Shown: one piece after another, positions 4,516 to 11,353 of the stretch
Layout: every line of letters begins with the position of its first letter
Numbering within the stretch: position 1 is the stretch's first letter
Source of the DNA: a virus
IMG/VR virus record: IMGVR_UViG_3300010373_000121
Location: 1-25,839 of that record
Length of the DNA stretch: 25,839 nt
Direction: 5' to 3' (one strand)
Program-made: the position numbers and the translations under genes
The notes under the pieces: generated by a model
The model's input: only the letters and a program-made list of their open reading frames with translations
What the model was told of the DNA's origin: nothing
The model's database searches: none

Positions 4516-5085
4516 ATGGCTCCCATCGACTACGCCGTCCTGGCGAAGCGCGCTTATACGGACGCGCCAACGATCGGGAAGGCGGATAGCGCCTCGCGGA
4601 TGCATGTGTACGGCGACGTGCATGTGTTTCGGGGTAGCGATGACATTGCATCGTTCCTTGCCGACGCGAATTGCTCGACAACTGACGTGCATGGCCTAGG
4701 TAAGGTCCATGCCGGCTTCTATGGCGCTTTGGCCGCAATATTGCCGGCTTGTCTTGCAATGCCGATGCCGTCGGCGGTTGCTGGACACAGTCTTGGTGCG
4801 GCCATGGCGATACTGTACGCAGCAGTGTTGTCTCAAATCGGCGCGCCGGTTCCTGTCTATGCGTTCGAGCCGCCGCGGTTGTGCTGTGATAACACTCTGC
4901 ATGAGCTTTTGGCGGCCAAGCGTGTGCCGTTCTATGCGACGCGAAATGGCCGCGATTTGGTGACTCAGGTGCCACTAGGCATGACGTTGCCTGGATCGTT
5001 GACGCAGATCGGTAAGGCAGTGTTGCCGTTCGACAACATCGAAGACCACAGTATCGACCGGGTTATTGAAGCCCTGGCGGCATGA
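4516..5085 (+). CDS. Class 3 lipase-like alpha/beta hydrolase
   Basis: The 189-residue product shows the lipase class 3 layout. VHAGFYGAL lies at 64-72, the nucleophile elbow AGHSLGAA contains Ser92, FEPPR is at 117-121, NGRDLVTQVP contains Asp147, and His178 lies in DHSID near the C-terminus. Ser92-Asp147-His178 is a plausible catalytic triad. There is no signal peptide. The expected activity is hydrolysis of acyl esters in glycerolipids or phospholipids. It sits between the lysis genes and the terminase genes and has no place in standard virion assembly, so it may aid envelope disruption or alter host lipids. Its start directly follows the micro-ORF stop. Confidence 0.82.
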   Translation: MAPIDYAVLAKRAYTDAPTIGKADSASRMHVYGDVHVFRGSDDIASFLADANCSTTDVHGLGKVHAGFYGALAAILPACLAMPMPSAVAGHSLGAAMAILYAAVLSQIGAPVPVYAFEPPRLCCDNTLHELLAAKRVPFYATRNGRDLVTQVPLGMTLPGSLTQIGKAVLPFDNIEDHSIDRVIEALAA

Positions 5086-7662: not shown

Positions 7663-7836
7663 ATGACGATCAATATCAAACCAAGTCACAAAGGCCTACT
7701 CCACAAGAAGCTTGGCGTGCCAATGGATAAGCCAATTCCAGCTGGCAAGCTTTTGAAGGCCGAGCACTCCAAATCCGCAGCACTGCGGCGCGAAGCTCAA
7801 TTCGCCGCCAATGCTCGGACGTGGAAACATAAGTGA
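7663..7836 (+). CDS. Short basic protein between terminase and portal
   Basis: A 57-codon gene runs from ATG 7663 to TGA 7836. The product is very basic, with KPSHKGLLHKKLGVP near the start and a repeat of the Lys/His theme in AEHSKSAALRREAQFAANAR. I recognise this sequence type as a common small phage protein placed by the terminase or portal gene, without known function. Its charge suggests nucleic-acid contact. The portal gene's GTG overlaps its stop by 4 bases (GTGA), indicating translational coupling. Confidence 0.75.
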   Translation: MTINIKPSHKGLLHKKLGVPMDKPIPAGKLLKAEHSKSAALRREAQFAANARTWKHK

Positions 7837-9206
7837 GTACAGTTCGCGACCTCTCGCCCTTCATGAAGAGGGTGAGTGAAGGATGGTCCATGGTCCACGC
7901 GCTCATTGGCGGCACCGCAGCCATGCGCGCTGCAGGCAAAGCGCTGCTTCCTCAATGGCCGCAAGAGGACGACGATAGTTACAAGACGCGATTGTCCGTC
8001 GCTACGTTGTATCCAGTATTCCGCAGAACGGTCGAGGTCAATGCGGCGCGTCCGTTTTCACGTCCCGCGACGGTCACTGCGAAGGGCATTCCCGAAGAAT
8101 GGCTGTGTGACGTCGATCTCCAGGGTTCGAACATCAATGCATTTGCCAATTCGATGTTGTATGAGGGTCTTGCCTATGGCATGGGCGGCATTCTGGTGGA
8201 CTACCCGCCCGTCGCCAACATCAAGACCAAGGAACAGGAAAAGGCAGTCGGGGCACGTCCCTATTTCGTCAAGTATTCCGGCACGCATATTCTTGGGTGG
8301 AGAATTGAGAGGAGTAAGCTGACACAGCTTCGCCTGCTTGAAAACGTTGAGATCGAAGATGGTCAGTGGTCCACCGAGATCATTGAGCAGGTTCGCGTCC
8401 TGGAGCCAGGAAAATGGCAGACCTACCGTCTCAACGAGAAGTCGAAAGAATGGGATCTCTTTGATGAGGGTCCGACAACCTTGGATTGCATTCCTTGGGT
8501 GTTCGTCTACGGGCTAAAGATTGCTTTTGGTCATGGTCATACTCCGCTCAAGGATCTCGCCTACCTCAACGTCGAACATTACCAGAGCAGCAGCGACCAG
8601 CAGACCATTCTGCATGTCGCCCGTGTGCCGATTCTGTTCGGGAAAGGCTTTGGTGATAGCCAGATCACGATCGGCGCATCTCACGCCGTGATGGCAGACG
8701 ACAAAGACGCTGATCTTTCGTACGTGGAGCACCAAGGCACGTCAATCGAATCTGGCCGGCAATCGCTGCTTGACTTGGAAGAGCGCATGCGCGCCACCGG
8801 TGCCGAGCTTATTAGTCAGAAGCCGGTACAAACCACGGCGACCCAGGTCAACTCCGAGGGCGAGTCCGCTAAATCATTGCTGCAGCAGATCGTCGAGAAC
8901 CTGGAGGAATCCATTTGCCAGGCGATATGCTTCATGGGGCAGTGGGCTAAGAAGCCTGTCGAGCCCACCGTGGAGTTCTTCAAGAGCTTCACCTCTCTGC
9001 CGCCGCACGACAAAGACATGATCAGCAATGCCAAGAAGGCTGGCGTCATATCAGGTCAAACGATGTTTGAAGAACTGCAGCGTCGCGACGTGATTTCGCT
9101 TGACCGCAACTGGAATGACGAGAAAACCAGACTGCAGTCAGAGCGAGACACCGTGTCTGGGCCACAGTCTGACGACATCAGGACCGACGACCTCTTAAAC
9201 GAGTAG
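7833..9206 (+). CDS. Portal protein (DUF4055 type)
   Basis: The 457-residue product has the features of DUF4055 phage portals. These are an N-terminal YKTRLSVATLYPVFRRTVEV, a GMGGILVDYPP block, and a C-terminal helical region with QVNSEGESAKSLLQQIVENL (the stem or wing). It should form the dodecameric ring at the unique capsid vertex through which DNA passes. The start is GTG at 7833, overlapping the preceding stop. After its stop comes an 89-base non-coding leader that contains the hairpin array described separately. Confidence 0.88.
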   Translation: MSTVRDLSPFMKRVSEGWSMVHALIGGTAAMRAAGKALLPQWPQEDDDSYKTRLSVATLYPVFRRTVEVNAARPFSRPATVTAKGIPEEWLCDVDLQGSNINAFANSMLYEGLAYGMGGILVDYPPVANIKTKEQEKAVGARPYFVKYSGTHILGWRIERSKLTQLRLLENVEIEDGQWSTEIIEQVRVLEPGKWQTYRLNEKSKEWDLFDEGPTTLDCIPWVFVYGLKIAFGHGHTPLKDLAYLNVEHYQSSSDQQTILHVARVPILFGKGFGDSQITIGASHAVMADDKDADLSYVEHQGTSIESGRQSLLDLEERMRATGAELISQKPVQTTATQVNSEGESAKSLLQQIVENLEESICQAICFMGQWAKKPVEPTVEFFKSFTSLPPHDKDMISNAKKAGVISGQTMFEELQRRDVISLDRNWNDEKTRLQSERDTVSGPQSDDIRTDDLLNE

Positions 9207-9226
9207 GCGCAGGCCGATTCAAAGCA

Positions 9227-9292
9227 GGCTATGCGCGGATGCGTATGGCCGTTTCGCCCCGGATGGGGTCACATCAACCTGTTGGATGACAG
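9227..9292 (+). promoter_or_regulatory. Three tandem hairpins with GGAT loops in the scaffold-gene leader
   Basis: Three stems of different sequence each enclose GGAT. Stem 1 (9227-9250) has 10 bp, GGCTATGCGC over GCGTATGGCC, with two G-T pairs. Stem 2 (9256-9269) has 5 bp, GCCCC over GGGGT. Stem 3 (9279-9292) has 5 bp, CTGTT over GACAG. Loops begin at 9237, 9261 and 9284, 24 and 23 nt apart. The third GGA sits 9 bases before the scaffold ATG and would be its ribosome binding site. GGA in a hairpin loop is the hallmark of CsrA/RsmA sites; a phage RNA-binding protein is an equal alternative. Confidence 0.65.
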
Positions 9293-9295
9293 ACG

Positions 9296-10054
9296 ATGAA
9301 ACTGAAGCTCGATGAACAGGGTCACGCCGTCCTCGCGGATGGCAAACCCGTGTATGTGCATGACGATGGCAAAGAAATTCCCTTCGACGCCGCGGCGACT
9401 ATCGCGACGATCAGCCGCCTCAACGGCGAGGCGAAGGGACACCGCGAACGCGCTGAACGTGCCGAGGAGACCCTAAAGGCCTTCGATGGTATCGAAGACG
9501 CCGAAGCAGCCCGCAGGGCACTCTCCACCATCAAAAACCTGGACGACAAGAAGCTGGTCGATGCCGGCGAGGTCGAACGGGTGAAGACGGAGGCCATCAA
9601 GGCCGTCGAGGAGAAGTACGCACCGATCATCAAGGAGCGCGACAAGCTGCAGTCAGCACTCGTCTCCGAAAAGATCGGCGGTAGCTTTGCCCGTAGCAAG
9701 CTGATCACCGACAAGCTGGCCATCCCTGCTGACTTGGTGCAGGCCCGCTTCGGTGAGCACTTCAAGCTCGATGGCGAAAACGTCGTCGCCTACGATAAAT
9801 CCGGCAACAAACTCTACAGTCGCGCCAATCCCGGCGAGCTGGCGGCGTTTGATGAAGCCCTGGAAATGATCGTTGAGCAGTACCCCTACCGCGACAGCAT
9901 CATGAAAGCATCGGGTGCAAGTGGTGGTGGTGCGCAAGGCGGTAGCAATACCGGTGGTGGCGGCAGCAAGACCATCTCACGTACGCAATTCGAGTCGATG
10001 TCGGATACCCAGCGCGCGGCCCACTTCAAGGCTGGCGGCACGATCACCGACTGA
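9296..10054 (+). CDS. Capsid scaffolding protein (DUF6651-like)
   Basis: The 252-residue product starts with a short beta-rich part (KLDEQGHAVLADGKPVYVHD). It then has a long charged, coiled-coil-like section (about residues 43-125, rich in E, R, K and A), a more globular part (130-205), a Gly/Ser linker (208-226) and a short basic-to-polar C-terminus. This layout and its place between portal and coat protein fit an internal scaffold that binds coat protein by its C-terminal end and leaves before or during packaging. I associate the sequence with DUF6651 phage proteins. Its leader carries the GGAT hairpins. Confidence 0.8.
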   Translation: MKLKLDEQGHAVLADGKPVYVHDDGKEIPFDAAATIATISRLNGEAKGHRERAERAEETLKAFDGIEDAEAARRALSTIKNLDDKKLVDAGEVERVKTEAIKAVEEKYAPIIKERDKLQSALVSEKIGGSFARSKLITDKLAIPADLVQARFGEHFKLDGENVVAYDKSGNKLYSRANPGELAAFDEALEMIVEQYPYRDSIMKASGASGGGAQGGSNTGGGGSKTISRTQFESMSDTQRAAHFKAGGTITD

Positions 10055-10078: not shown

Positions 10079-10104
10079 AAGCCGCGCAACGCGGCTTTTT
10101 CTTT
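10079..10104 (+). terminator. Intrinsic terminator between scaffold and coat genes
   Basis: An 8-bp stem (AAGCCGCG over CGCGGCTT) with a CAA loop is followed by TTTTT and more T-rich sequence. It lies 24 bases after the scaffold stop and upstream of the coat-gene hairpin pair. It could end scaffold transcripts or adjust the scaffold-to-coat ratio. Confidence 0.82.
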
Positions 10105-10109
10105 GCCGA

Positions 10110-10147
10110 GCCTCGGATGAGGTGCAGGCGTTCGGGCCGGATGGCTC
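10110..10147 (+). promoter_or_regulatory. Pair of GGAT-loop hairpins in the coat-protein leader
   Basis: Hairpin 1 (10110-10123) is GCCTC-GGAT-GAGGT; hairpin 2 (10134-10147) is GGGCC-GGAT-GGCTC. Each has five pairs including one G-T wobble. The loops start at 10115 and 10139, exactly 24 nt apart, as for the first two loops before the scaffold gene. Hairpin 2 also shares flanking sequence with scaffold hairpin 2 (CGTT, then CCGGATGG, then TCAC). The coat gene's ribosome binding site (GGAGAG) lies 34 bases beyond and is not in a hairpin. Confidence 0.6.
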
Positions 10148-10192: not shown

Positions 10193-11353
10193 ATGAGCAA
10201 TACCCTGACCAACCTCATCCCCGACCTGTACGAGGCGATCGACGTCGTCTCGCGAGAAATGGTCGGCTTCATTCCGTCTGTCACCCTGAGCGCGACCGCC
10301 GAGCGTGCCGCACTCAACGAAAATGTCCGCGTGCCGATCACCCCCGCCGCTTCGGCGGAAGACGTCACCCCGGGCCAGTTACCACCCGATGATGGCGACC
10401 AGAGCATCGGCAATAACGTGATCGTCATCAGCAAGTCGCGCATGGTGCCGTTCCGCTGGGCTGGTGAAGAGCAGAAGGGCGTGAACAACCAGGCGCCGAA
10501 TGGCGGCTATGCCAAGATTCGCCAGAATCAGGTGCAGCAGGCGATCCGTACCCTGGTAAACGAAGTGGACGCCAATATCGGAACGCTGTTCTCGACCGCA
10601 TCGCGCGCCGAAGGCACCGCCGGCACCACGCCATTTGCCTCCAGCCTCAGCGACACCGCGCAGCTACGCAAGATCCTGTCCGACAACGGCGCTCCGCTGT
10701 CCGATATGCAGTGCGTAATCGACACCACCGCCGGCGCCAATCTGCGCACGCTAACCCAACTGACGAAGGCGAATGAAGCCGGCACCACTGAGCTGCGCGC
10801 CCAGGGTACGCTTCTGGAGCTGCATGGCTTTACGTTGCGTGAGTCCGCCGGGGTTGCCGAGTCGGTGGCCGCAGGCTCCGTGACGGGCGCTGTGACGGCA
10901 TCGGGCGCCAAGGGTGCCACCAGTGTCACCTTCACCACCCCATCCGGTGGTGCGGTTGCCCTGGTAGCGGGTGATATCGTGACCTTCGCCGGTGACTCCA
11001 ATAAGTATGTGGTGGCTGCGGCGGCGACCATTGGTGCCTCCACCAGCGGCTCCGTAACCATCGGTGCCCCTGGCCTGCGTTCCACGCTGTCCAGTGCCGC
11101 GGTGACTGTCGTGGCTACCTCGACACGCAACCTCGCCTTCGCCCGCTCGGCACTGGTCCTGGCGACCCGCCTGCCTGCACTACCGGAAGAGGGCGATATG
11201 GCGGAAGACCGCATCGTCATCACCGATCCGCGCAGCGGCATCGCTTTCGAGTTCGCCATGTACAAGCAGTATCGCCGAGTGCGGTACGAAGTGGCGCTCG
11301 CCTACGGCTGGGCCAACATCAAGCCGGAACACTCGGCGGTATTGCTGGGCTAA
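10193..11353 (+). CDS. Major capsid protein, P22 coat-like, with a beta-rich insertion
   Basis: The 386-residue product has the N-terminal region of P22-type coat proteins (NTLTNLIPDLYEAIDVVSRE, then VRVPITPA) and a C-terminal segment with TRNLAFARSALVLATRLPA and GIAFEFAMYKQYRRVRYEVA. Between them, about residues 227-303 form a Val/Thr/Gly/Ala-rich stretch that looks like an inserted beta-sandwich (GDIVTFAGDSNKYVV). It builds the icosahedral shell. The ATG at 10193 follows GGAGAG. The leader carries a terminator and two GGAT hairpins, and a further hairpin follows the stop. Confidence 0.9.
   Translation: MSNTLTNLIPDLYEAIDVVSREMVGFIPSVTLSATAERAALNENVRVPITPAASAEDVTPGQLPPDDGDQSIGNNVIVISKSRMVPFRWAGEEQKGVNNQAPNGGYAKIRQNQVQQAIRTLVNEVDANIGTLFSTASRAEGTAGTTPFASSLSDTAQLRKILSDNGAPLSDMQCVIDTTAGANLRTLTQLTKANEAGTTELRAQGTLLELHGFTLRESAGVAESVAAGSVTGAVTASGAKGATSVTFTTPSGGAVALVAGDIVTFAGDSNKYVVAAAATIGASTSGSVTIGAPGLRSTLSSAAVTVVATSTRNLAFARSALVLATRLPALPEEGDMAEDRIVITDPRSGIAFEFAMYKQYRRVRYEVALAYGWANIKPEHSAVLLG

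Follow-up and report, generated by a model that had tools for sequence, protein, structure and literature searches.

In the RNA phages MS2, PP7 and Q-beta, the coat protein, a capsid-assembly protein, represses translation by means of a hairpin at the start site. In phage P22, unassembled scaffolding protein lowers its own synthesis post-transcriptionally, as was inferred decades ago. The product of gene 43 of phages T4 and RB69 represses its own mRNA via a short hairpin that lies close to the ribosome site and has a specific loop of four bases; this operator loop varies between related phages (UAAC and UAAA) (PMC3014915). The element described here, which precedes the head scaffolding gene of many tailed phages, differs from all of these. 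The gene 43 operator is one hairpin about 40 nt upstream of one gene and its protein is a DNA polymerase, whereas the scaffold element is a row of two or three hairpins with the same loop and is found at two genes. The coat operators of the RNA phages are also single hairpins, but they lie in an RNA genome, are bound by an unrelated protein and repress the replicase instead of the protein's own gene. P22 has the same coat fold as the phages studied here, but its portal gene is separated from its scaffold gene by just 13 nt and tandem hairpins are missing; any P22 site must therefore be different. The sites of CsrA/RsmA and the CsrB-type RNAs are alike in presenting GGA in hairpin loops at several tandem positions, whereas the hairpins described here are almost devoid of the ANGGA core, some of the hosts yielded no corresponding gene and relatives carry NAG, NGG or NGT loops.

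Autogenous operators are thus known as a kind (T4 gene 43), but the tandem same-loop form, the gene context and the correspondence between loop and scaffold are, as far as we found, apparently undescribed. A search of Rfam with E values up to 1 gave no relevant match on the window (tRNA aside) or on seven relatives, and none was obtained at the gathering thresholds on thirteen relatives. No description of the element was found by full-text search, to which most subscription papers were closed, and no mention of DUF6651 was found in the full texts searched.

The window, a 25,839-base IMG/VR virus record that is probably a fragment, carries terminase, portal, scaffold, P22-fold capsid and sheathed-tail genes. 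Between the portal gene (7833-9206) and the gene of the head scaffolding protein (9296..10054, plus strand; 252 aa, DUF6651, phrog_784 and phrog_206), three tandem GGAT hairpins with stems of 10, 5 and 5 bp were found on the plus strand exactly where the first-pass annotation had placed them. Hairpin I (9227..9250), GGCTATGCGC[GGAT]GCGTATGGCC, has ten pairs and the loop at 9237-9240; its equivalent in relatives (helix 1) covaries. Hairpin II (9256..9269), GCCCC[GGAT]GGGGT, has the loop at 9261-9264, and the corresponding helix 2 in the alignment of relatives shows double-sided changes at all five of its pairs. Hairpin III (9279..9292), CTGTT[GGAT]GACAG, corresponds to helix 3 in the alignment and has the loop at 9284-9287. 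The loop starts are spaced 24 and then 23 nt apart, and all three hairpins are present in the minimum-free-energy fold of positions 9200-9320 (-44.9 kcal/mol, z = -2.5). A set of 100,000 simulated 80-nt leaders (Markov-1) contained no case of three GGAT loops on stems of at least 5 bp and six cases of two; a single tetraloop word of any kind common to three hairpins was seen in none of 20,000 simulated leaders. Nine bases separate the last GGA (9284-9286) from the scaffold ATG (9296), and this GGA is the sole Shine-Dalgarno candidate for that ATG in the window.

The scaffold-leader trio is only a part of the element; the earlier annotation had overlooked both a GGAT pair in the capsid leader and the link between loop and scaffold. 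The second gene bearing the element encodes the major capsid protein with the P22 coat fold (10193..11353, plus strand; PF11651, phrog_283). Capsid-leader hairpin I (10105..10129, plus strand) has the inner stem GCCTC/GAGGT, the loop GGAT at 10115-10118 and a possible outer stem of GCC (10105-10107) with GGC (10127-10129); hairpin II (10134..10147, plus strand) has the stem GGGCC/GGCTC and the loop GGAT at 10139-10142. Their loops are spaced 24 nt apart, as in the scaffold leader. The pair sits in the scaffold-capsid intergenic region, downstream of an intrinsic-terminator-like hairpin (10079..10097, plus strand) predicted by a consensus scan alone. The nearest relative has both hairpins at identical positions (I at -78, II at -54) and others are similar; in relatives generally, the first hairpin lies roughly between -87 and -68 and the second between -63 and -45. 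The pair is present in most phages with a scaffold-capsid gap greater than roughly 85-90 nt and in none with a shorter gap. Being 45-79 nt 5' of the ATG, these hairpins are outside the ribosome site. The capsid leader of Pseudomonas phage R656 mixes GGAT with GGAC.

Relatives were gathered by their scaffold and capsid proteins from viral contigs, bacterial genomes and named phages. Among 173 loci, GGAT clearly exceeded every other tetraloop word in hairpin content (7.3% of all GGATs, compared with 1.9% for the next word). Of the GGATs in leaders, 72% lay inside the loop of a stem of at least 4 bp; for GGATs at other places in these loci, the figure was 6%. Scaffold leaders typically have three hairpins, near -60, -36 and either -12 or -20, and the distance from one loop to the next is 19-25 nt in almost every case. 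In an alignment of 36 leaders, 95.6% of the cells were standard-paired (72.0% after shuffling), double-sided cells numbered 91 (26 after shuffling) and the covariation score was 0.63 (0.20 after shuffling), with double-sided changes at 12 of 13 pairs. None of 500 shuffles matched any of the covariation measures, the signal was lost when the partner strand was slid, and RNAalifold recovered the three hairpins unaided. Similarly, pair 2 was formed at 195 of 201 unique GGAT sites, compared with 83 after shuffling. The earlier suggestion of selection on RNA structure is borne out by this covariation. Scaffold genes kept with their hairpins lost or broken, which had been named as evidence against it, were looked for among the relatives, and nearly all DUF6651 leaders bear the hairpins. 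The array of same-loop hairpins in scaffold and capsid leaders is a genuine and widely conserved RNA element.

When IMG/VR was scanned for the pattern of tandem C-GGAT-G sites, 55 of 80 loci had a scaffold gene downstream. Most of the others were either chance matches lacking good stems or contig ends; L326 apparently precedes a capsid gene, and L334 has good stems and no scaffold match. A GGAT hairpin was also present inside many scaffold genes: 44 cases with a stem of at least 4 bp fell between +200 and +299 relative to the scaffold start, and those listed were all at +263, with GCTGGT[GGAT]GCCGGC or a close variant (for example L005:5264 and its equivalents). This internal hairpin was treated as a codon coincidence since it coincides with the conserved codons LVDAGE, and the window lacks it. 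In 81 of 101 leaders (for example L010:4920-4945), a U-tract resembling that of an intrinsic terminator was found within 115 nt of the start codon and 5' of the first GGAU hairpin. A terminator ahead of a highly needed gene is puzzling.

Among phages with the P22 coat, tandem GGAW was found only where the gene before the capsid gene encodes a DUF6651 scaffold, and it was absent where the scaffold is of another type (PF06810-like or other relatives within phrog_206). Many, though not all, of the non-DUF6651 leaders have tandem hairpins with another common loop (NAG, NGG, NGT or GNGAU). The loops are C[NAG]G in Pasteurella and Herbaspirillum phages and in L091 and L100, C[NGG]G in L122, L140, L149 and their relatives, NGT in L120, L136, L138 and L145, and GNGAU in L173 and also, within DUF6651, in Microcystis phage Me-ZS1. 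In the NGG group the stems vary (GTCAC, GCTGC, TGTAC, TCTAC) and GGG is constant. Strict-pair triloop stems of at least 5 bp averaged 0.74 per non-DUF6651 leader, compared with 0.13 per window drawn at random from those loci, and letters 2-3 of the triloop agreed in 8 of 9 within-leader pairs, compared with 21% between leaders. Several non-DUF6651 leaders showed no clear hairpin row, and the leader of Listeria phage A118 showed no clear row with a common loop. In three of the NGG-loop phages (L431:1378-1478, L457:2401-2501 and L140:1-87), a promoter-like TTGACA or TTTACT followed by TATAAT or a similar sequence was seen by eye directly 5' of the tandem hairpins, which suggests a short leader consisting of the hairpins alone. 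In Stenotrophomonas phage ANB28 (L185:3160-3273), which has a distant DUF6651 scaffold, two upstream stems carry the larger loops AAGCGATA and AAGAGATA, perhaps another loop word.

The scaffold is the protein that changes when the loop differs at about equal closeness of terminase, portal and capsid. L091 and L100 are 60-61% identical to the window in terminase, 47% in portal and 63-65% in capsid; their scaffolds have no BLAST match to the window scaffold and their loops are NAG triloops. In L010 and L088, the portal and capsid of which are about equally close to those of the window, a DUF6651 scaffold goes with GGAU loops. On this comparison, the portal protein and the terminase were rejected as binders. 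The capsid protein was rejected as well, since GGAU occurs with two capsid families under DUF6651 scaffolds, P22_coat and Gp13-like (the latter in Acinetobacter phage B1251 and Pseudomonas phage PS-1), and one and the same family is also found with other loops. In a phylogeny of 61 scaffolds, the deep branches of which are uncertain and in which near-copies add to the clustering, loop type changed 11 times (minimum 7), compared with a mean of 24.3 after shuffling, and none of 200 shuffles was as low; the sampled NAG rows formed one clade, as did the sampled NGT rows. Within a phage, uniformity of the fourth loop base is only partial: where one loop was not GGAT, its partner matched it in 14 of 28 cases. 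Loop type thus tracks scaffold type, although a part of this co-segregation could be simple linkage, as the leader adjoins the scaffold gene.

A loop that is mostly constant within a phage on stems that are free to change makes a dedicated RNA-binding protein the natural reading, and to this extent the controller proposed at first pass, an RNA-binding protein of phage or host, stands. The binder is probably encoded by the phage and is most likely the scaffold protein itself. Acinetobacter baumannii phages differ in their loop (GGAU in B1251, NAG in qsb1) and the hosts of some GGAU prophages yielded no CsrA gene, both of which argue for a phage-encoded binder. That several loop words exist, each mostly uniform within its phage, points the same way, and the scaffold protein is the adjacent candidate. 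PF02599 was found in 5 of the 12 genomes searched. It was detected neither in Kaistia soli nor in Aquitalea aquatica, the prophages of which carry arrays, nor in an array-bearing alphaproteobacterial MAG; as these are draft genomes, the absence is strong but not absolute.

We therefore regard it as fairly likely that the hairpins are a phage translational operator and that the scaffold protein binds them and represses its own translation; the gene at 9296..10054 would then be both the regulated gene and the source of the RNA binder. Scaffold protein in excess over coat protein would bind the GGAU loops of the two or three tandem hairpins in the leader of its own mRNA, and the bound hairpin that contains or abuts the Shine-Dalgarno sequence would block the entry of the ribosome, so that scaffold synthesis would be matched to capsid assembly. 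A capsid gene with a separate leader would receive the same signal via the same hairpins. The operator would thus be both encoded and read by the phage and would act on translation. The analysis establishes the conserved structure, its position, both gene contexts, a loop mostly constant within a phage and the match between loop and scaffold types; the scaffold protein as binder, repression as its effect and cooperative binding are inferences.

The position of the last hairpin is in agreement with this. In 34 of 101 leaders, including that of the window, the last loop is positioned at -8 to -14 and the tail contains no other Shine-Dalgarno match, so that the loop GGA must serve; in the other 67, a separate match was present 3' of the last hairpin in 54. 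A protein on the last hairpin would exclude the ribosome, which makes repression the simplest reading. As with the gp43 operator of T4, a conserved hairpin with a fixed loop lies at or near the ribosome site of the gene for the putative regulator, and variation of the operator accompanies variation of the encoded protein, which linkage could also cause. The AlphaFold model of the scaffold protein (mean pLDDT 84, pTM 0.40) has a small beta unit at the N terminus, a pair of long helices and a small mixed domain (residues about 133-204). A fold search with this model gave no significant match to a solved fold and no known RNA-binding domain.

On this evidence the binder must be encoded by the phage and vary along with the loop, and the tie between loop and scaffold gene could come from linkage by itself. 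Another phage protein linked to the head module might accordingly bind the hairpins, with the scaffold and capsid genes as mere targets. We consider this unlikely, since capsid, portal and terminase do not correspond to loop type and, among the subset of genes compared, none besides the scaffold was shown to track the loop.

Still less probable is a put-like antiterminator RNA, in which tandem hairpins after terminators would act on host RNA polymerase and let late transcription proceed. Phage HK639 carries the array, and King's 2011 work in J Bacteriol on new antiterminator RNAs in phages reportedly dealt with HK639. The put RNA consists of two stem-loops (PMC9378689), and the U-tracts lie ahead of the first hairpin, as described above. 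However, put RNA binds the polymerase via irregular stems and not via one repeated loop word (PMC9378689), and the hairpins studied here are tightly spaced to start codons, with a loop that serves as the Shine-Dalgarno site. Moreover, a common polymerase target does not predict loops that differ among phages of the same host species. Antitermination of the put type is therefore not supported. Stems of high stability close to ribosome sites commonly tune expression and shield 5' ends, and the stems found here are stable; nevertheless, hairpins that acted by themselves, with no dedicated protein, to provide ribosome standby or to stabilise the mRNA would explain neither the common loop word within a leader despite varying stems nor the change of the loop with scaffold type, and we rate them marginally below the put-like RNA. 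The earlier proposal of control by host CsrA/RsmA, which would bind the GGA loops and control scaffold translation, is highly improbable: tandem GGA hairpin loops at a ribosome site do resemble CsrA targets, but the ANGGA core (A at -2) occurs in just 3 of 155 unique hairpins, CsrA was not found in some array hosts, and loops differ among phages of one host species and include NAG triloops without GGA.

Translational repression by the scaffold protein thus remains the reading that we favour. Whether it extends to phrog_206 scaffolds in the wide sense is, in our estimate, evenly balanced. These proteins would form a superfamily of sequence-specific hairpin readers with a loop code of GGAW, GNGAW, NAG, NGG, NGT, NGA and GNAA, one word per phage, read from rows of two or three hairpins before the scaffold gene and any separately led capsid gene, and would hold the scaffold-to-coat ratio. 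The proportion of scaffold to coat in tailed phages is an old question, to which the element brings a defined and mutable RNA site that is present in many phages, among them laboratory phages such as the Escherichia coli phage HK639. It also has a built-in test of specificity, in which the loop word and the scaffold are swapped together. A set of orthogonal hairpin-protein pairs, if such it is, would be useful as RNA tags and translational switches.

Two genes elsewhere in the window are of separate interest. A class 3 lipase domain protein (4516-5085; Lipase_3, E = 1.2e-14) is encoded upstream of the terminase genes and is unusual cargo at that place. In the metallophosphoesterase gene (1196-2782), the phosphoesterase match spans residues 1-210, and the remainder has, judged by eye only, the look of an intein inserted in frame (CLTPDHRV... 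to ...GHHNC), the middle of which resembles a homing endonuclease.
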